From assembly GCF_900108485.1 (NCBI RefSeq), contig NZ_FNXF01000009.1, positions 62,001 to 126,000 of the forward strand: 64,000 bases of DNA. Reading direction: 5' to 3'. How positions within the stretch are numbered: the stretch's first letter is position 1; every line of letters begins with the position of its first letter. The position numbers and the translations under genes are program-made. This stretch comes from Rheinheimera pacifica (lineage in GTDB: Bacteria; Pseudomonadota; Gammaproteobacteria; Enterobacterales; Alteromonadaceae). The notes beneath the pieces were generated by a model. That model ran no database searches and was not told the DNA's origin. It worked only from the letters and a program-made list of their open reading frames with translations. This document shows positions 22,294-29,569 of this stretch, piece by piece.

Positions 22294-22310
22294 TAACTCC
22301 CACAATACAC

Positions 22311-22338
22311 AAAAGGCGCTTTAAACAGCGCCTTTTTT
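22311..22338 (+). terminator. Rho-independent terminator of asnS
   Basis: AAGGCGCT-TTAAAC-AGCGCCTT, a perfect 8-bp stem followed by TTTT, 20 bp past the asnS stop. Confidence 0.92.
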
Positions 22339-22377
22339 ATTGCCCAAAGCAAAGGTTATTCAGTTAGCTACTTTTGT

Positions 22378-22689
22378 TTAACCATACAAAACAGAAACTA
22401 CCTTTTCTTGCGGGTTAAATTCTATATCGCAGCTAAGCAAGTGAAAATGCAGCACGCTACTGTGACTAACGCGTTTACCCTGCGGCAGGTTTTCCACTTT
22501 GTATTCCGACAAATTAACCGTGTTTAATTGCCGTATTACACTTGAGTAAGCGGTTCCTTTACTAACATTGCCGCAAAGATAATAAATTTCTTTTCGCGCT
22601 TCGTTTGCGTAGAAGCCGAAAACCAGTAAGCCCAAAATGCTGATTGCTGCAGCAATAAATTTTAGTTTAAGCATAATCCTGCTGTTCAT
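22378..22689 (-). CDS. Small membrane-anchored hypothetical protein
   Basis: A protein of 98-103 residues with one N-terminal hydrophobic segment (KFIAAAISILGLLVFGFYA) that could be a signal anchor, then a soluble domain with two cysteines (YLCGNV, LLSCDIEF). Two starts are possible; ATG at 22674 has AGGA a few bases upstream and may be the better one. I recognise no family. The gene ends at the left edge of the accessory region: the first flanking repeat begins 19 bp upstream of its start. It could therefore be either a core gene or part of the acquired segment. Confidence 0.6.
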   Translation of the reverse strand: MNSRIMLKLKFIAAAISILGLLVFGFYANEARKEIYYLCGNVSKGTAYSSVIRQLNTVNLSEYKVENLPQGKRVSHSSVLHFHLLSCDIEFNPQEKVVSVLYG

Positions 22690-22707
22690 TACAAAATGTA
22701 TTACCGT

Positions 22708-22787
22708 GTCAGATAAAAATTAAACATGATATTTTTCGCCCTTTTAATCTTTATCTGACCCTTTTATTTCTTTTCATTATGATCCCA
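22708..22787. repeat. Palindromic flanking repeat, left copy
   Basis: GTCAGATAAAAATTAAA (22708-22724) pairs with TTTTAATCTTTATCTGAC (22742-22759) as an almost perfect stem, with a loop of about 17 bp. The same sequence recurs in the same orientation at 27652-27730, and similarity extends about 25 bp past the right arm. The GGGTCAGA...TCTGACCC type of palindrome is reminiscent of sequences around REP-associated tyrosine transposases (from memory), but no transposase is present here. Confidence 0.85.
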
Positions 22788-22806
22788 TTTATTCAAGAGC
22801 GGGAGT

Positions 22807-24411
22807 TCACCTGTGGCTGCGCGAGTAGTTCTGATAAGCCACTGACGATTTCAGCATGTAGACACGTCCCTCGACTACAAATCCGTCAAGTTCATGTTGC
22901 AACGTGTAAGCCGACATATCGGACATCTTGTTTATGAAGCCCTTACTTTTGAAGTTCAGAGACGTATTGCACAGTACTCCATAACCTGTTTGCTCTTTGA
23001 AGGCAGTCAGTAACTCAAACAAAGTAAGATTGCTCACTGTGGACACTGTTTGAATACGCGCAGTCCCGTTAACATGGGTCACCGCTGCAAGTACGTCAGT
23101 GGTGGCCTGATAGGTGTAAAGCATGAATGGGCTAGGTTGGCTGCATCCAAACCATTTTTTTGCCTCCTCCTCCAAGCAAACGGGAGCGATTGGACGAAAC
23201 TGTTCCCGCTGCTTGATGATGTTCAGCCGCTCTCTGGTGCTGGCGTTAAAAGGCGCAGCCAAGATGGAACGATTACCGAGCGCGCGTGGCCCGATCTCGT
23301 AGCGGCCGCTTACCCACCCTAAGATCAAGTCGCCGGCAAGCATTGCGGCTACAGTGGCATTACTCGCTTCCCACTCATCGAATAGGGAGCTATCGACGGG
23401 TTCGTCAAAGATAAATTGCAAACCAGAGTAGACATCCCACTTTATCTTTGGGTCGCCGGTAAAATGAAACTGCGCGTCGATGGCTGTACCAATCGCTGAA
23501 CCTGAATCGTTAGCGACTGGGGGGACGAACACATCGCTGAATAATCCAGAATCTTTCCATTTAGTGTTCCAATCGCAATTAAGCCCGCATCCCCCCACTA
23601 TTAATAATGGCATACCCCGTTTCAGACTCATCTCAGCAAACCGGTGGAAACGGTCGAACAGGCGATTGCTGAAGATGCCAGCAAAGTTGCAGAACTCCGG
23701 ATCCTCCACTCCCACATTGTAATGCCGAGACCCTTTAAAGGCTTCACAGTCGCGGGGCTTAAGATGCTCGCAATCTTGCAACAAGAAAGACATGATTGCC
23801 TCTTCCTCAGCCGTTGGCTGGCTTCTTTTCGAGAAAGAAGCCAGCGCCATAAGCTTCCCGGCGTCAGACAACCTGGAGAATTCAGCGGTACTTTTGTCGA
23901 AGGTAGGATCTGCTAGTGCGTAGAGCATGGCATAGCGATGGCCAGGCTCCGGCATCACATCGGCCACCTTCGTCACATTCAATTCCGGATCGATCTCGTA
24001 GAACGCTCCAATAACGCCCTCCCAGAGCAACGCATAACATGGGGTGCCCTTCGCTAGACTAGACATCCCAAACGCACATAGAAGGTGCGAGCGCTCGTGG
24101 GATGATGAGAAGAAGTCAATGGTCTTTCCCAATAACTGCTTCTTGCTGACAATCATCTGGCCGTGATCGCTGCCGCGATATTCCGCCACCTTTTCCCCTC
24201 CTTGCGGAGAGTCACCAGGCCACCATCCTCCTTTACAGAGCACGTCGGGAATGTCATGAAGCTCGGCAAGGGCGTCGAATGTATCCGGAATAGATAGTGA
24301 AGAATGTCGGTATTTCGAACTCTTCTCGGCCTCGATAGAGAACACCAAACGCCCGTTCTCAATATATGCAAATGCGCCATCATGGCCTGGGTTGTATGAG
24401 AGTATCTTCAT
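22807..24411 (-). CDS. NodU/CmcH-family O-carbamoyltransferase
   Basis: A 534-residue enzyme of the NodU/CmcH/TobZ family, which moves a carbamoyl group from carbamoyl phosphate through carbamoyl-AMP to a hydroxyl group of a sugar or antibiotic. The N-terminal Kae1-like domain starts ILSYNPGHDGAFAYIENG and includes the histidine-bearing SSHERSHLLCAFG segment. The C-terminal domain has the hallmark GRYEIGPRALGNRSILA motif, REQFRPIAP and LCNTSLNFKSKGF. I chose the ATG at 24411, after GGAG in the upstream gene; it overlaps that gene by 32 bp. The upstream genes encode a glycosyltransferase and a GT25/sulfotransferase/GH16 fusion, so the acceptor is probably a glycan. The operon's codons (more AAG, GAG, CTC) look unlike those of the flanking core genes. 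Confidence 0.9.
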   Translation of the reverse strand: MKILSYNPGHDGAFAYIENGRLVFSIEAEKSSKYRHSSLSIPDTFDALAELHDIPDVLCKGGWWPGDSPQGGEKVAEYRGSDHGQMIVSKKQLLGKTIDFFSSSHERSHLLCAFGMSSLAKGTPCYALLWEGVIGAFYEIDPELNVTKVADVMPEPGHRYAMLYALADPTFDKSTAEFSRLSDAGKLMALASFSKRSQPTAEEEAIMSFLLQDCEHLKPRDCEAFKGSRHYNVGVEDPEFCNFAGIFSNRLFDRFHRFAEMSLKRGMPLLIVGGCGLNCDWNTKWKDSGLFSDVFVPPVANDSGSAIGTAIDAQFHFTGDPKIKWDVYSGLQFIFDEPVDSSLFDEWEASNATVAAMLAGDLILGWVSGRYEIGPRALGNRSILAAPFNASTRERLNIIKQREQFRPIAPVCLEEEAKKWFGCSQPSPFMLYTYQATTDVLAAVTHVNGTARIQTVSTVSNLTLFELLTAFKEQTGYGVLCNTSLNFKSKGFINKMSDMSAYTLQHELDGFVVEGRVYMLKSSVAYQNYSRSHR

Positions 24412-26614
24412 CTTGAACTCCGTTGATAACTGGCCCGTCCAAGTTATAGAGCCCCCTGGATTTCTGTTGGTGTACTGATGCTCTGTGCGCAAGCGCGCGA
24501 ATCGACTGTACATTTGCCACTGTCGGTAGCCGACGGGTATTGAGGCGCCCTGCGAGTTGAGAGGATCGAGTAGGCCACGTGTTGAAGTGCAGTTTCATCG
24601 GCAAATGGGGAATCGGGGTTGGATCCCAAAGCACACGTCGATGGACCAGGAGATCATCCACAAACCATCGAATCTCCCACGGTGTCCATTCAATAGCATA
24701 CCGATGCATACCTTTCGAAGCGTCGAAGCCCAATTCTATGTAGCTAGGAGCGCCCCGATAGCCGTAGTCGAACTTTGCGCCTTCCCCGCCTGGGTTGTAG
24801 AAGACATTTACAAGAAGGCGATTTGGCAAGTTACCGGCAATCTCGATGTCAATCTCCTGATGCGGAGAGTTACGGTGAAGAAAGAATCCAGTGACGATAC
24901 CTGGTACGTTGGACGCTTGGAAGGTTGATTCGAACCTCCCAAACAGGTAGTCGGCATGGCTAGTTAGCGCGCCTGCACTGTATTGTCGAGCGCCCAACTC
25001 TTCCCGTCGGACGTGAATAGTCGCTCCTCCATCTTCGTCAAATTCAATGTTCTGGGGGCGGAACAACGCTAAATTACCGGTGAATGTGTCTGACCGAGCA
25101 AACCAATACAGCGGGTCGAGCCTCCCAGAGGCATCTACCCAATCGTCCTCGCCCACCAGCGGGTGCGGTACAACTCGAATACCTGACCACGCGCGGTGAC
25201 TTGACTCAACAACCCAAGGAGATCGATCCCGCTTGGCTATCACACTTTTCTGGGTGAAGGCAGATTGGCTAGGCGTTTCCCCGATATGTCGTTGGCCCAG
25301 ATCGTCCAGTTTGGGGAATGAGCACAAAGGTGGCGCGCACCGGAGATGCTCACAGAGAGTCCGCCAGACATTGACATCGTCGCAATCAAGCACGATGACG
25401 TCCGCCCCCTCGAGGTCATCTAGAACGCCGCGAGCAGTTTGCCCGGCAGCGTCGGTTGTTAAGATGAACTTGGCATGGGGGTAACTATGTCGAAGATCCC
25501 CTATCATCAACTCGATGCATCCAATATTGACATACGCATTGAACACCCTATCAACATTACCCTCGCGAAGCCTTTTCAACTCTTCGCTCGGCAAATCCTT
25601 TAAATCGCTGCAGCATCGGTAACCAAGCATCAACAGTGCCATCCCGATGGATGACTGTCCCGAGTTGGACGGGCCAAACGCAAAGACAGGGAACTGCGTC
25701 GGACGAGAGTTGAACAATGCTGCCCCTTCGCTGTTGATCGCGCCAATCGTAGATAGGGCCGGAAGAATCGAGTACGAATTTGTTGAGGTTGTGTCTGTCC
25801 TTTGAAGGACTATGCTACGCTTAGTTGCGTACACGTCTAGAGCGCGGAACTGATGGTTTATCCAAAGATCAACCGGGCCGCGACACGGCAACATGCTAAG
25901 AAGTTTCTCGGCTCCCTTTTTGGAAAGGATGTATCCAGACAAAAACCACAGTCCACGCTCCGGCCGGAAAACATAGTTCGACACCTGCAACTTTGGAGCG
26001 CCATGTTTCACCTCCAAATAAGAAACGTAAAGAACGTCGAAGCTGCTTTGTTGATCATCGGCCTTGAAGTTCTTCCAAGCCTGGTCTAGATGGCGTGCGA
26101 AACGGGGATGAAACCAGACGTCATCCTCTAAAATAAGGGCATACTCTTGCGCCCCCTGCGCAACTCGTTTCCAGACCTCAATATGCGATTTGGCAACAGC
26201 CACCTCCGCCCTACTCATTCGGATTGGTGCGTCAAGCTCATAACTCGTCGGAAGAGTCCGAGGCTGAGGCTCAACAAATAGTTGATCCGCCAATGTGTAG
26301 TAAGGATCTACCTCTGAGTCTTTGGATGGGTCCTGCAAAAAACATCTCGCATCCACAGCAACGTGACGTTCTGTGAGGCTGAGAAGATCATTACCAAATC
26401 TATCCCTTATGCATCCTAGCTCCTGCTTCACGCGAGACCACCGACCTGGCTCACGATCGAGATTGATCACGTATATCTTTTCAATTGTCCGCGCCGCCGG
26501 GATCTGCTGAGCCCCAAATGCGATGGACGTCTGCATAGGAAGGAGCCTGCGAAGGCCGTGCCCTAGACGAAATGCCCAACGAAGAACGGCAAGGTATGGG
26601 CGTGCCGGATTCAT
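24380..26614 (-). CDS. Tri-modular GT25 glycosyltransferase - sulfotransferase-like - GH16 glycosidase fusion
   Basis: A 744-residue protein that joins three carbohydrate-active modules. Residues about 45-285 are GT25 (IYVINLDREPGRW, then SRAEVAVAKSHIEVW and the acidic motif LILEDDVWF). Residues about 308-445 look like a PAPS-dependent sulfotransferase of the Sulfotransfer_4 type: an N-terminal loop VFAFGPSNSGQSSIG, a KFILTT strand, and a C-terminal VIVLDCDDVNVWRTLCEHL segment. The usual G-x-x-R/K-x-G-T-T loop is altered, so activity is uncertain. Residues about 505-720 are GH16, with the catalytic EIDIE (Glu587, Asp589, Glu591) and later YAIEW and WFVDD strands. No signal peptide or membrane helix is seen. 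The start is ATG at 26614, in an ATGA overlap with the upstream gene. I know of no named protein with this architecture. Confidence 0.82.
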   Translation of the reverse strand: MNPARPYLAVLRWAFRLGHGLRRLLPMQTSIAFGAQQIPAARTIEKIYVINLDREPGRWSRVKQELGCIRDRFGNDLLSLTERHVAVDARCFLQDPSKDSEVDPYYTLADQLFVEPQPRTLPTSYELDAPIRMSRAEVAVAKSHIEVWKRVAQGAQEYALILEDDVWFHPRFARHLDQAWKNFKADDQQSSFDVLYVSYLEVKHGAPKLQVSNYVFRPERGLWFLSGYILSKKGAEKLLSMLPCRGPVDLWINHQFRALDVYATKRSIVLQRTDTTSTNSYSILPALSTIGAINSEGAALFNSRPTQFPVFAFGPSNSGQSSIGMALLMLGYRCCSDLKDLPSEELKRLREGNVDRVFNAYVNIGCIELMIGDLRHSYPHAKFILTTDAAGQTARGVLDDLEGADVIVLDCDDVNVWRTLCEHLRCAPPLCSFPKLDDLGQRHIGETPSQSAFTQKSVIAKRDRSPWVVESSHRAWSGIRVVPHPLVGEDDWVDASGRLDPLYWFARSDTFTGNLALFRPQNIEFDEDGGATIHVRREELGARQYSAGALTSHADYLFGRFESTFQASNVPGIVTGFFLHRNSPHQEIDIEIAGNLPNRLLVNVFYNPGGEGAKFDYGYRGAPSYIELGFDASKGMHRYAIEWTPWEIRWFVDDLLVHRRVLWDPTPIPHLPMKLHFNTWPTRSSQLAGRLNTRRLPTVANVQSIRALAHRASVHQQKSRGLYNLDGPVINGVQDEDTLIQPRP

Positions 26615-27486
26615 CGCACGTCCAGAAGTGAAGGAGCACAATACGCCTGCTGATTAGACAGTCTCCAGTTCCTTGAATCGTCGCGATAGCTCAATGGCCA
26701 CTGGCTGGAGGATATCAATTCCCAATCGTGCGCGACCATCATTGCGTCATGGGAGCAGCCTTCGCCAAGTATTTCGAAGACCGACCTAGTGAGATTGCCT
26801 GGTCCCGTCGTAGCCTGAACTTCAGGCAACCCGCTTGTACTGTCTGCTTCGAGAGATACCGTGGCATTCATCAGCGCTCTTTCAACTATGGGGTGACGGG
26901 CGGACGCAATAAGCGGGGTGGTATTGAAGTAGAAAATCCATCCAGGCTGATTGGCCCCAGGCTTGGTAAATATTGACGGCTCTACCATTCGAGACGTTGC
27001 AATGTCGTAACAGAATGGTTGAAGCTTCAACCTTCCATCGACGAAGAGTTGCTCAACGGGGGTTCCGTGGTAAACATCGTCGGCATCGATGTAGAATCCT
27101 CCCTCCACAAACACATAAGAGTAACGGAAGTAGTCCGACATCATTGAGGGGTGGTAGCACCTATTAAATGCGTCTTCATAGCGAGCCCCTAAGCGGTTTC
27201 GAATGAAAGCACTGGCCGATCTTTTGTCGAACACTTCTAACGTAAATCCACTTCGCTCCAACTGCTTCCATGAACTCATGCAGGCTTTGACATCTTGCGG
27301 CAATCGCTGTAAGTCGTCCCAGAACTGTACAATACGTTTGGGGGTGGGGGCAGCGGACCACGTCGCAGAGCCGAGCGAAGTTGGTTCACGCCGCTGTACC
27401 ATATCACGCACGAAATCAGAGCGTGCACGCTCCAAAGGACTTAGTGGGTCGGCCTCGACAATTTCGCTCACTATTACCTCGTTCAT
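26611..27486 (-). CDS. GT32-type glycosyltransferase (DXD-containing)
   Basis: A 291-residue cytoplasmic glycosyltransferase resembling the Gly_transf_sug / GT32 group. The nucleotide-sugar domain opens with PKRIVQFWDD (compare IPKIIHQFW in the family) and has SMMSDYFRYSYVFVEGGFYI followed by the metal-binding DADD (DXD). A further FYFNTTPLIASARHPI segment is typical. The first gene of the three-gene operon, it has GAGGAG well placed before ATG 27486 and a candidate promoter about 100 bp upstream. Sugar donor and acceptor are unknown. It probably builds the glycan acted on by the downstream enzymes. Confidence 0.8.
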   Translation of the reverse strand: MNEVIVSEIVEADPLSPLERARSDFVRDMVQRREPTSLGSATWSAAPTPKRIVQFWDDLQRLPQDVKACMSSWKQLERSGFTLEVFDKRSASAFIRNRLGARYEDAFNRCYHPSMMSDYFRYSYVFVEGGFYIDADDVYHGTPVEQLFVDGRLKLQPFCYDIATSRMVEPSIFTKPGANQPGWIFYFNTTPLIASARHPIVERALMNATVSLEADSTSGLPEVQATTGPGNLTRSVFEILGEGCSHDAMMVAHDWELISSSQWPLSYRDDSRNWRLSNQQAYCAPSLLDVR

Positions 27487-27587
27487 TTATAACTCCTCAT
27501 CTTTAATGTATTCTCTTCATCATTTAAAACTCCGCCCCGACATCGCTGAATCGTCGTGCCGCAGGAAGTTGATCGACACTAAGATGA

Positions 27588-27615
27588 TTTATATTAGTAA
27601 TACGCGTGGTCGCAA
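27588..27615 (-). promoter_or_regulatory. Candidate promoter of the glycan operon
   Basis: On the minus strand, TTGCGA (27615-27610) and TATAAA (27593-27588) are separated by 16 bp, giving a leader of about 95 nt to the GT32 start. This rests only on sequence similarity to sigma-70 boxes. Confidence 0.4.
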
Positions 27616-27651
27616 ATTCTGAGAATGACCATAAGTTATTAGAAATAATTA

Positions 27652-27730
27652 GGGTCAGATAAAAATTAAACATGATTTTTTTCAGCCTTTTAGTTTTTAT
27701 CTGCCCCTGTTTATTACTTTCATTTATCCT
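27652..27730. repeat. Palindromic flanking repeat, right copy
   Basis: A second copy of the 22708-22787 element in the same orientation. The first 24 bases after GGG (TCAGATAAAAATTAAACATG...) match exactly. The stem is GGGTCAGATAAAAATTAAA with TTTTAGTTTTTATCTGCCCC. Together the copies enclose the three-gene glycan operon. The 27487-27828 gap holds this element, the candidate promoter and an attC site; I see no gene in it. Confidence 0.85.
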
Positions 27731-27764
27731 TTTGTATCGATACCTGCTTATGTGCTTAACGTAG

Positions 27765-27834
27765 ATCTAACCGACGCCAAATCTCAGCTTTGGCGAGCCC
27801 AGCGAAGTGAGCAAAGTTGAGTGCCAGGTTAGGA
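27765..27834 (-). other. Integron attC recombination site
   Basis: A 70-bp site on the minus strand with the integron attC layout: R'' box TCCTAAC (27834-27828), R' box GTTAGAT (27771-27765), and between them an imperfect inverted repeat. CTCAACTTTG pairs with CAAAGCTGAG, next to GCTCACTTCGCTGGGCTCGC, which is typical of attC interiors. The R'' box is the exact complement of GTTAGGA at the other side of the TIR gene (28805-28799), as expected for a circularised cassette. The TIR stop codon overlaps the R'' box, as is common in cassettes. Confidence 0.75.
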
Positions 27835-28804
27835 CTTTGGCTTCCCATCAAATTTGTCCGCCACCTTGCTAATTAGCTCTGCAAATCGTGAATCTACTTT
27901 CTCAACGTCGAGGTGCGATAGGTCTGAGGAACCAGATGTGTTCCAATGCTGAAACACCTCTTTAATTTCTGCCGGTGTAATTTGTGTAGAAAAAACACGC
28001 ATATAGAATTTACCGAACGAAATAGCATGTAAGCGATCAGCATTCTTTAGCGCCTCAAGCTGATGTGCTTTTGCCAACAAAAATGCATATCTAGCAAGCC
28101 CCAGAAGCAAAGCAACAATTGTGACCCCTTTTACGGTATCAAACAGCAAACGATTGGTCTCAAGAGTGGCTTGAGCAAGTGTGCGTTCAGCCATCCACCA
28201 AAGTGTAAAGACGAAAATGACCGATGCGACAAGTGTGGCATAACCTGCCAAGTGCCATCTTGAAGCAAGTTTTCGCCCAGTTTTTTCCCGCGCAGTGAGA
28301 TCTTCAATGGTTTCTTTTATGTAGTCGGCTGAATTTTCTTCAAGAATTTTCCCTTGAAGATCCTTTATCTCTTCTTGAGCAATCCGGAACCCTTCGAAAC
28401 GACTTATGGCGTTTTCAATTTCCCCAACGAGAAAATCGAAGTCCTCAGTGCGCCCAAATAGAGCCTGAAATGCACCAAGATCGCTATCGTTCAGTGATGC
28501 CTGATCTAGCACCACTGGCAATATCAATTTATCCCTATTGCTGTGAGCTACATAGGAAACGGCTGAGGTGACTTCTATATTGAAATAATAGGATTTGTCA
28601 CTATGGTTGGTGACTAGCGCTAGAAAAACATCTGCATCTTTTAGGTGGCGCTTAATGTCCTCTTGCCAGTGAGCACCAATTCGAATCGATTGTTGGTCCA
28701 AGAACACATCATGCTTCCGCTGATGGAGTTCTGTGGTCAATCTTTGTGCGATTTGGCTGTCTTCTCTAGCATAAGAAATAAATATCTTGGCCATAAAGTC
28801 CTAA
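27771..28804 (-). mobile_element. Single integron gene cassette carrying the TIR gene
   Basis: The boundaries follow from the cleavage points in GTTAGGA (28805) and GTTAGAT (27771), giving 1034 bp: a 10-nt leader, the TIR gene, and attC. No integrase gene or attI site lies in the window, so this would be a lone cassette, either a remnant array or an insertion at a secondary site. An alternative reading is a gene framed by an 11-bp inverted repeat (GTTAGGACTTT / AAAGTCCTAAC). Confidence 0.65.
27829..28794 (-). CDS. TIR-domain protein with two transmembrane helices
   Basis: A 321-residue protein. Residues 1-135 form a TIR domain (MAKIFISYAREDS, FLDQQSIRIGAHW, DADVFLALVTNHS) with Glu74 (YYFNIEVTSA) in the position of the NADase catalytic glutamate. 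Next come an acidic helical linker (137-175), two membrane helices (about 180-202 and 222-243), and a C-terminal soluble tail of about 75 residues (HAISFGKFYMRVF, EIKEVFQHW). Bacterial TIR proteins are often antiphage effectors that degrade or convert NAD; membrane-anchored forms are less studied. It has a 10-nt leader and is packaged as an integron cassette, a frequent vehicle for defence genes. That it acts in defence is inferred; the domain calls are firm. Confidence 0.85.
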   Translation of the reverse strand: MAKIFISYAREDSQIAQRLTTELHQRKHDVFLDQQSIRIGAHWQEDIKRHLKDADVFLALVTNHSDKSYYFNIEVTSAVSYVAHSNRDKLILPVVLDQASLNDSDLGAFQALFGRTEDFDFLVGEIENAISRFEGFRIAQEEIKDLQGKILEENSADYIKETIEDLTAREKTGRKLASRWHLAGYATLVASVIFVFTLWWMAERTLAQATLETNRLLFDTVKGVTIVALLLGLARYAFLLAKAHQLEALKNADRLHAISFGKFYMRVFSTQITPAEIKEVFQHWNTSGSSDLSHLDVEKVDSRFAELISKVADKFDGKPKS

Positions 28805-28987
28805 CATTTTATTTTTGAGCATTCATTATATTTCTGCGCTCATCTGCAGTAAGCCTTTAACTTAGCTAAAGTATTTTGTATCCGCAACATATATATGCCT
28901 ATGTAAATAAAATATATCCGCTACTTTGCCGGTATTGATAAAGATAACTCTGTAGTTGTGTATTGAGGCACACGTTATGGCAGGCAA

Positions 28988-29019
28988 TAAAAAGCCGGGT
29001 GCTGTGAATAACGCCCGGC
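28988..29019 (-). terminator. Terminator of the YhhY-like acetyltransferase gene
   Basis: On the minus strand GCCGGGCG pairs with the distal CACCCGGC across a 9-nt loop, followed by TTTTTATT. It ends the GNAT gene transcript. The rest of 28806-29071 is AT-rich and I see no gene in it. Confidence 0.85.
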
Positions 29020-29071
29020 GGTTAGTTTGGTTTAAATCTACTTAGCGGTAGTTTATTCCGCTTTTTTATAT

Positions 29072-29569
29072 TCAAACAGAACCGGTATTGATACGTGCCA
29101 TACATAAGGCGTTGACATAGTTACCGTATTGAAAGGCAAAATCGGTTAGCTCTGCTTCTACTTCAAAACCAAAGCGCTCATATAAGGCTATTGCTGCTTC
29201 GTTGCTGGTGTAAACGGTAAGCTCCATACGGCGGATATTCAACCAGTTGTCGGCCATTTCTAACGCGGAGCGCAGCAGTGCCGAACCGATACCCTGGCCC
29301 TGATAATCCTCCGACACGCCCATGCCAAGCTCGGCCACATGGCGGCGCCGTGGGTTTTGGCATACCTGTAACCCGAGCTGACCTATTACTTTACCTTCTA
29401 CCTCGGCCACCAAGTTATAAAAACCGGCACCAGCGGTATACAGCCTTTGCCAGTTTGCCACCGGCTGATAAGGCAACTGCAGCGTATTGGCGTACACAGT
29501 AGGTTGATCATAAATAGCTTTAATAGCGTCAATGTCAGCAGGTTCAGCATGACGGATCACAGCGGGCAT
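29072..29569 (-). CDS. GNAT N-acetyltransferase, YhhY-like
   Basis: A 165-residue GNAT acetyltransferase similar to E. coli YhhY: VIRHAEPADIDAIKAIY at the N-terminus, YANTLQLPY, PRRRHVAELGMGV, the acetyl-CoA pyrophosphate loop YQGQGIGSALL, and NEAAIALYERFGFEVE. YhhY acetylates some amino acids and peptide analogues; the substrate here is not determined. The ATG at 29569 has AAGGA eight bases upstream and is preferred to the GTG at 29584. Confidence 0.85.
   Translation of the reverse strand: MPAVIRHAEPADIDAIKAIYDQPTVYANTLQLPYQPVANWQRLYTAGAGFYNLVAEVEGKVIGQLGLQVCQNPRRRHVAELGMGVSEDYQGQGIGSALLRSALEMADNWLNIRRMELTVYTSNEAAIALYERFGFEVEAELTDFAFQYGNYVNALCMARINTGSV

Follow-up and report, generated by a model that had tools for sequence, protein, structure and literature searches.

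Here we report a fused glycan-active protein and its operon, found in a 64,000-nucleotide stretch of the Rheinheimera pacifica genome (assembly GCF_900108485.1, contig NZ_FNXF01000009.1, positions 62,001 to 126,000; hereafter the window). The protein, encoded by gene A, joins a glycosyltransferase family 25 (GT25) module, a degenerate sulfotransferase-like module and a glycoside hydrolase family 16 (GH16) module. Gene A is the core of a compact operon, B-A(-C), in which gene B, coding for a second glycosyltransferase, is near-obligatory and gene C, coding for a carbamoyltransferase, is optional. This cassette is mobile and sparsely distributed, bears the marks of horizontal transfer and is enriched in defence islands. 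From this location we tentatively suggest, at slightly less than even confidence, that B-A(-C) is a cytosolic glycan-building module used in conflict with phages or mobile elements.

Gene A occupies 24380..26614 on the minus strand and encodes 744 amino acids, with an ATG at 26614 and no internal stop. The initial annotation had placed all three modules in one uninterrupted frame, and the open reading frame (ORF), its exact coordinates and the motifs quoted for it were all recovered. The GT25 module (25868..26479, minus strand) matches Glyco_transf_25 (PF01755) over residues 46-249 (E 4e-14; 53.4 bits, cut-off 24) and carries its EDD motif at residues 163-165 (26120-26128, minus strand). The GH16 module (24551..25006, minus strand) matches Glyco_hydro_16 (PF00722) over residues 537-688 (E 3e-27; 95.7 bits, cut-off 22), with the catalytic EIDIE at residues 587-591 (24842-24856, minus strand). 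Between them lies the sulfotransferase-like module (25289..25699, minus strand; residues 306-442), which in a scan of the whole protein matches Sulfotransfer_4 over residues 310-387 just under the cut-off (E 4e-4; 20.7 bits against 22.8) and, when scanned alone as had been proposed, exceeds it at 29.5 bits.

The fusion is no chance product, because GT25 and GH16 occur together in all 120 listed homologues (of 2472 database matches at E 1e-3, the window's own protein included); 118 of the 120 are at least 700 amino acids long. The architecture is widespread: patterns around IYVINLDR and HQEIDIE located 66 further loci on genome contigs, most of them full length and a few split or ended by contig edges, which with the window make up the 67 loci considered below. 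Databases name such proteins “family 16 glycosylhydrolase” or “GR25 family glycosyltransferase”. Our alignments took in 51 of the 67 A proteins, 24 of 66 B proteins and 14 C proteins (12 from 31 loci and two plasmid copies). The GT25 EDD is identical in 51/51 of these diverse A proteins and was present in 120/120 close homologues located by word search. The GH16 residues E587, D589 and E591 are likewise identical in all 51, a figure biased by the search pattern HQEIDIE, and E-x-D-x-E is present in the 120/120 close homologues, which were located by word search and not by that pattern. Judged by these motifs, both modules look catalytically intact. The possibility that the GH16 region is a non-catalytic lectin, raised at the outset as a challenge to the predicted activity, is ruled out by the invariant catalytic motif.

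By sequence comparison, the marginal Sulfotransfer_4 match is real homology, because 48 of 50 homologous middle pieces match this family on their own at E 0.01 or better (best 6e-16), in agreement with the earlier description of this part as sulfotransferase-like. A family profile of the module recovered nine sulfotransferase chains among solved structures (SgdX2 8y9p, Schistosoma SULT-OR and relatives; E 9e-7 to 5e-4) and nothing besides sulfotransferases below E 1. In the three solved relatives inspected the P-loop reads GxxRTGT, and its Arg or Lys has a functional role in sulfotransferases that use 3'-phosphoadenosine-5'-phosphosulfate. The window's protein retains a P-loop relic (25646-25675, minus strand; the P-loop region GPSNSGQSS is residues 314-322) with Asn at that position, where the 51 diverse members have Gly, Asn, Asp, Ser, Ala or Gln and never Arg or Lys, and where Lys or Arg does occur in a few close homologues (4 of 120). 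The position is thus not a conserved one. The alignment passes over some 64-67 residues of the solved chains, which follow the AKxIxT strand and precede the C-terminal segment, a part that makes 3'-phosphate and acceptor contacts in sulfotransferases, and the 51 diverse members share no conserved Arg at 387-391. Mean pairwise identity is 45% for the middle module, 50% for GT25 and 58% for GH16, and the invariant middle-module residues include F358, A360, Y361 and N363. The P-loop Arg is lost and a segment is missing, yet the module has been retained with invariant residues, from which we infer that it probably has a structural or binding role. Searches for stand-alone relatives gave 49 matches, which by length and identity were judged pieces or members of the gene A family.

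These observations bear on the idea, put forward in the initial annotation, of a single enzyme with three activities, which would lengthen, sulfate and trim the same glycan. Glycosyl transfer and cleavage or transglycosylation are upheld by the conserved EDD and E-x-D-x-E; sulfation is not, and the accompanying caveat of a degenerate sulfotransferase loop is the better reading. Having three homologous modules in one chain, together with the four close homologues that carry Lys or Arg in the P-loop, would favour such an enzyme, yet the absence of either residue from 51/51 diverse members, the loss of some 65 residues of the fold and the lack of a conserved Arg at 387-391 leave us regarding it as highly improbable. 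An active sulfotransferase is accordingly set aside as unlikely, on the P-loop and the missing segment.

Gene B (26611..27486, minus strand; 291 amino acids), which overlaps gene A by four nucleotides (ATGA), encodes a GT32-like glycosyltransferase (Gly_transf_sug; 27.8 bits, cut-off 23) with a DXD motif, and its Asp 134 and Asp 136 are invariant in 24/24 proteins. A gene B of about 290 codons lies directly upstream of gene A on the same strand at 66 of 67 loci, with frequent start/stop overlaps. The sole locus without it is L052, where a tblastn search with 24 B proteins came up empty over the first 6,100 bases. On an Aliarcobacter butzleri plasmid (L091:9083-9932), gene A is intact and two short ORFs stand where gene B would be expected, and B may be decaying there. 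Gene C (22807..24411, minus strand; 534 amino acids), the start of which runs 32 nucleotides into the end of gene A, encodes a NodU-like O-carbamoyltransferase with both N and C carbamoyltransferase domains (78.8 and 181.5 bits in Pfam); its best NCBIfam match is NodU, at 258 bits and under the equivalog cut-off of 1000. It was found near gene A in at least 31 of the 67 loci (25 times downstream and co-directional, 4 times upstream and divergent, and twice downstream on the opposite strand), counts that are lower bounds, some loci stopping at contig ends.

Pairwise distances among the proteins agree closely, both for A and B (rho 0.84, 24 loci) and for A and C (rho 0.92, 11 loci), and in neither case did any of 999 permutations reach as high a value. 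Among ORFs of at least 90 amino acids within up to 10 kb per side, no further cluster recurs in more than four loci, and the clusters of the 67 loci include no recurring exporter, polymerase, flippase or lipid-carrier gene beside the cassette. By simple hydropathy, none of the 51 A, 24 B and 14 C proteins has a membrane-like stretch within its first 60 residues, and one of the 51 A proteins has an internal one; a signal peptide or secreted enzyme is without support by this measure for any of the three. Since none of the three proteins shows an evident signal for membrane insertion or export, and no transporter or polymerase gene regularly accompanies them, the chemistry of the cassette is likely cytosolic.

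Sparse occurrence and transfer are evident at several scales. Among 118 genomes (the window's own and 117 relatives), full-length gene A is confined to the window's own, with some match in 31. Of 398 genomes drawn from the phylum, three had matches at 1e-30, namely the window's own, a full-length copy in G350 whose coordinates equal those of the genome of locus L009, and one restricted to GH16. In a tree of 51 gene A proteins, 15 phylum labels (as given by submitters) are intermixed, with label changes on starred branches numbering at least five for Pseudomonadota, four for Actinomycetota and three for Chloroflexota, and the carriers include Gram-negatives, Actinomycetota, Bacillota and Chloroflexota. 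Near-identical gene A copies in Aliarcobacter and a Fusobacteriaceae metagenome-assembled genome (L038 and L040, the latter the assembled genome) may reflect a very recent transfer or contamination of the bin. Coverage of at least 80% was reached in nine of 72,556 plasmid records. Among them is the Citrobacter freundii IncC plasmid L088 (NZ_MH475146.1), with DNA 92% identical over 68% of the stretch 22300-29100, which suggests recent transfer; on it, A and C lie near an integron and resistance genes. On Sinorhizobium plasmids (H22-H24) the match is restricted to the gene C side (query 545-2139), beside IS66 transposase genes, and a DNA megablast of Escherichia coli genomes returned no match.

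The cassette keeps company with defence genes. We took as neighbours the two nearest ORFs per side, which gave 228 ORFs from 62 of 66 loci, four having no usable flank. Two batches of 114 neighbours matched 260 and 246 PADLOC models, and 112 control ORFs taken elsewhere in the same genomes (scanned from 160 chosen; 28 of 40 regions) matched 6; these figures count models and not genes, the batches share models, and the GajA, GajB and OLD-type models overlap heavily. ORF calling was mechanical, so that the spurious short ORFs of GC-rich genomes enter neighbour and control sets alike. The 25 models listed per batch are chiefly GajA, GajB, PtuA, AriA and Old. Pfam families, counted in the cassette neighbours alone and without control ORFs, included AAA_15 in 7 of the 228, an OLD-like TOPRIM in 6, UvrD in 5 and phage integrase in 5; transposases and relaxases are also found there. 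Gabija- or OLD-type proteins directly adjoin the cassette in L022, L023, L027 (both GajA and GajB), L039, L050 and L051. Of ten neighbours tested singly, picked after the AAA_15 positions were known and not at random, seven gave GajA, GajB or OLD matches.

Whole genomes, with distances to the cassette compared by eye, show a similar association. Of 38 genomes, 4 have an N6 methylase no more than 10 kb from the cassette (about 0.6 expected), and, among the AAA_15 matches listed, 6 have one over the cut-off at that distance (about 1.4 expected). Taken together, N6 methylase and OLD-type AAA amount to 10 cases against about 2 expected (P ~6e-5; Poisson, assuming an independence that is not fully met). 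The hotspot occupied by the cassette in the window also holds a TIR gene, and a DUF262-like gene fills the slot in one relative; we count both in favour of a defence role.

Three full-length copies lie on viral contigs (L153, L154 and L155). In L153 the cassette stands directly beyond a terminase, a portal and an adenine-methylase-like ORF, the last assigned by eye; L154 has a terminase gene on the same contig, and in L155 UvrD and OLD-type AAA genes lie about 4-8 kb from the cassette. In P2-like prophages, the interval separating the replication gene from the portal gene is described as a defence hotspot (PMC9122126), and another report confirms that hotspot and describes a second one (PMC9519451). 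The position of the cassette in L153, taken as P2-type from its gpP-like terminase match, fits the portal-side defence site.

This genomic company hints that phages or competing mobile elements select for the cassette. The operon may work as follows. Glycosyltransferases of these kinds use nucleotide sugars as donors, and with them gene B and the GT25 module would assemble a short beta-linked glycan in the cytosol. Carriage by Gram-negative and Gram-positive phyla alike points to an acceptor that most bacteria share. The GH16 module, of the lichenase/ExoK type, would trim or re-link this glycan, the degenerate sulfotransferase fold may bind the substrate or join the modules, and gene C would cap the product with carbamoyl groups. 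Such a module could be selected for protecting the cell, or the mobile element that carries it, from phages or rival elements, either through a phage-inhibitory glycan or through glycosylation of a cytosolic target during infection. On a bolder and somewhat more doubtful version, the cassette would represent a new mobile anti-phage or anti-element class acting via intracellular glycan chemistry, in which the two glycosyltransferases, together with the tethered GH16 transglycosylase and, where present, the carbamoyltransferase, would produce or attach an infection-blocking glycan, with the dead sulfotransferase fold as sensor or scaffold. To our knowledge, neither glycosyltransferases nor glycan-cleaving enzymes form the core of any known intracellular defence system.

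Several observations weigh against a role in defence. Three of the ten singly tested neighbours had no defence match, and the non-random choice of those ten counts on the same side, as does the large number of housekeeping families among the 228 neighbours in Pfam. GmrSD_N showed no enrichment (1 of 114 neighbours in one batch), and none of its 25 genome matches lay within 10 kb. Searched against PADLOC (2023 database), A, B and C matched no model at E 0.01, and none of 50,697 phage records holds the cassette. GT25 and GH16 proteins are usually enzymes of surface polysaccharides or exopolysaccharides. Islands like these receive accessory cargo of any sort, and the enrichment in defence genes was gauged against other parts of the same genomes and not against non-defence accessory genes. 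It is therefore conceivable, at rather low probability, that the cassette is hitchhiking metabolic cargo with no part in conflict, brought near defence genes merely through common mobile islands. The integrases, transposases and relaxases among its neighbours and the absence of GmrSD enrichment would agree with this, and the recurrent presence of Gabija/OLD-type genes close by, as well as a site beside the portal gene of a viral contig, where cargo has little room, argue otherwise.

The enzymatic families themselves invite two further explanations. B and A might add and remodel a side chain of lipopolysaccharide (LPS), capsule or exopolysaccharide that C carbamoylates, altering phage receptors or serotype. 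GT25 is an “LPS biosynthesis” family, the GH16 module resembles BglS and the succinoglycan-processing enzyme ExoK, surface or secreted glycans are known to be carbamoylated in some cases, and presence in mobile elements would be accounted for as well. Set against this are carriers that span Gram-negatives, Actinomycetota, Bacillota and Chloroflexota, groups for which we know of no common surface acceptor, the failure of an exporter, flippase or polymerase to recur, and the lack of membrane or secretion signals by simple hydropathy; we consider surface tailoring unlikely, if less so than inert cargo. A soluble carbamoylated oligosaccharide serving as signal, inhibitor or osmolyte, comparable to the Nod factor made by nod genes in the cytosol, is about as improbable as inert cargo. 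The NodU match of gene C (258 bits) and the self-contained cassette are consistent with it, and a sulfotransferase-like fold beside a carbamoyltransferase recalls nodH/nodU decoration; however, no synthase, acyltransferase or exporter cluster recurs, gene C is unseen in 36 of 67 loci (some ended by contig edges) and the sulfotransferase module is degenerate. These likelihoods overlap in part: defence, whether as a conflict module or as a new class, stands somewhat short of even, surface tailoring well below that, and a soluble product and inert cargo lower still.

In the window the cassette lies in a variable hotspot (22693..28804) with conserved flanks, asnS on one side and acetyltransferase/etf on the other, and a content that differs among relatives. 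AsnS and the small ORF next to it were found in five same-genus relatives, the ORF being shifted by about 1.9 kb in one, and the far flank near 28805-28828 was seen in four of the five in the DNA stretch examined. The relative with the DUF262-like gene also has a nucleotidyltransferase-like gene there (both assigned by eye). Two 71-nucleotide hairpin direct repeats, 85% identical, bracket C-A-B on the plus strand, one at 22708..22778 (fold z -5.3) and the other at 27654..27724 (fold z -4.7). They are not a genome-wide element, having just four genome copies at two or fewer mismatches; a copy other than this pair is close to an ORF that looks by eye like a transposase, with no clear mobiliser. 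An attC-like stretch at 27760-27840 was unsupported by folding (z -0.8 and -0.7). The neighbouring TIR-domain protein (27829..28794, minus strand), with partial matches to the ThsB, SAVED-TIR and RT-TIR defence models, is possibly a separate defence gene. It was ruled out as a member of the cassette, being absent from every recurring cluster.

The sequences themselves are not new; the cassette, its degenerate middle module and its defence neighbourhood appear undescribed in the literature searched. Full-text searches found no description of GT25, GH16 and a sulfotransferase together, in agreement with the initial annotation, which knew of no characterised protein with this arrangement, and carbamoyltransferase combined with the spelled-out GT25/GH16 family names returned unrelated literature only. 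By title, among the matches listed, papers with both GH16 and GT25 look like genome, carbohydrate-active enzyme or transcriptome surveys, and glycosyltransferases or carbamoyltransferases with defence terms yielded nothing pertinent; papers naming GT25 in words had no such fusion by title. Strict conservation, wide transfer and closeness to Gabija, OLD and the P2-type prophage hotspot point to a portable function whose acceptor is common to most bacteria, packed by B and A into two genes and about 3 kb. Even if the function proves to be something other than defence, knowing that acceptor would be of broad interest.

Like the defence-island and P2-hotspot systems Gabija, OLD and tin, the cassette is compact, mobile and sparse and keeps to the same neighbourhoods; unlike them, it has no PADLOC match, and no protein family common to them and A, B or C was found. 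Gene C shares both carbamoyltransferase domains with NodU (258 bits) but falls under the cut-off of 1000 and has partners that are not nod genes. Gene B has the DXD-containing region of GT32 (Och1) enzymes (PDB 9n3s, E 8e-7 with the family profile), although the similarity is weak and partial. With the Sulfotransfer_4 proteins SgdX2 and Schistosoma SULT-OR, the middle module of gene A shares a colinear N-terminal strand-loop, AKxIxT strand and WxxLCxFL segment, whereas it has no conserved P-loop Arg/Lys and is shorter by about 65 residues, measuring 137 amino acids in the window's protein. Its GH16 module has the fold region and EIDIE of the beta-glycanases BglS and ExoK (NCBIfam, 90 and 57 bits; PDB 3o5s and 1gbg against the family profile, E 1-2e-25) but scores under the curated cut-offs of 300 and 350 bits, and lies behind a GT25 module without an evident secretion signal. 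The GT25 module resembles the collagen galactosyltransferase COLGALT1 and the LPS GT25 enzymes in its EDD and its PF01755 match over the cut-off (PDB 9u7j and 9evj against the family profile, E ~1e-13), and differs from them in being joined to two further modules.

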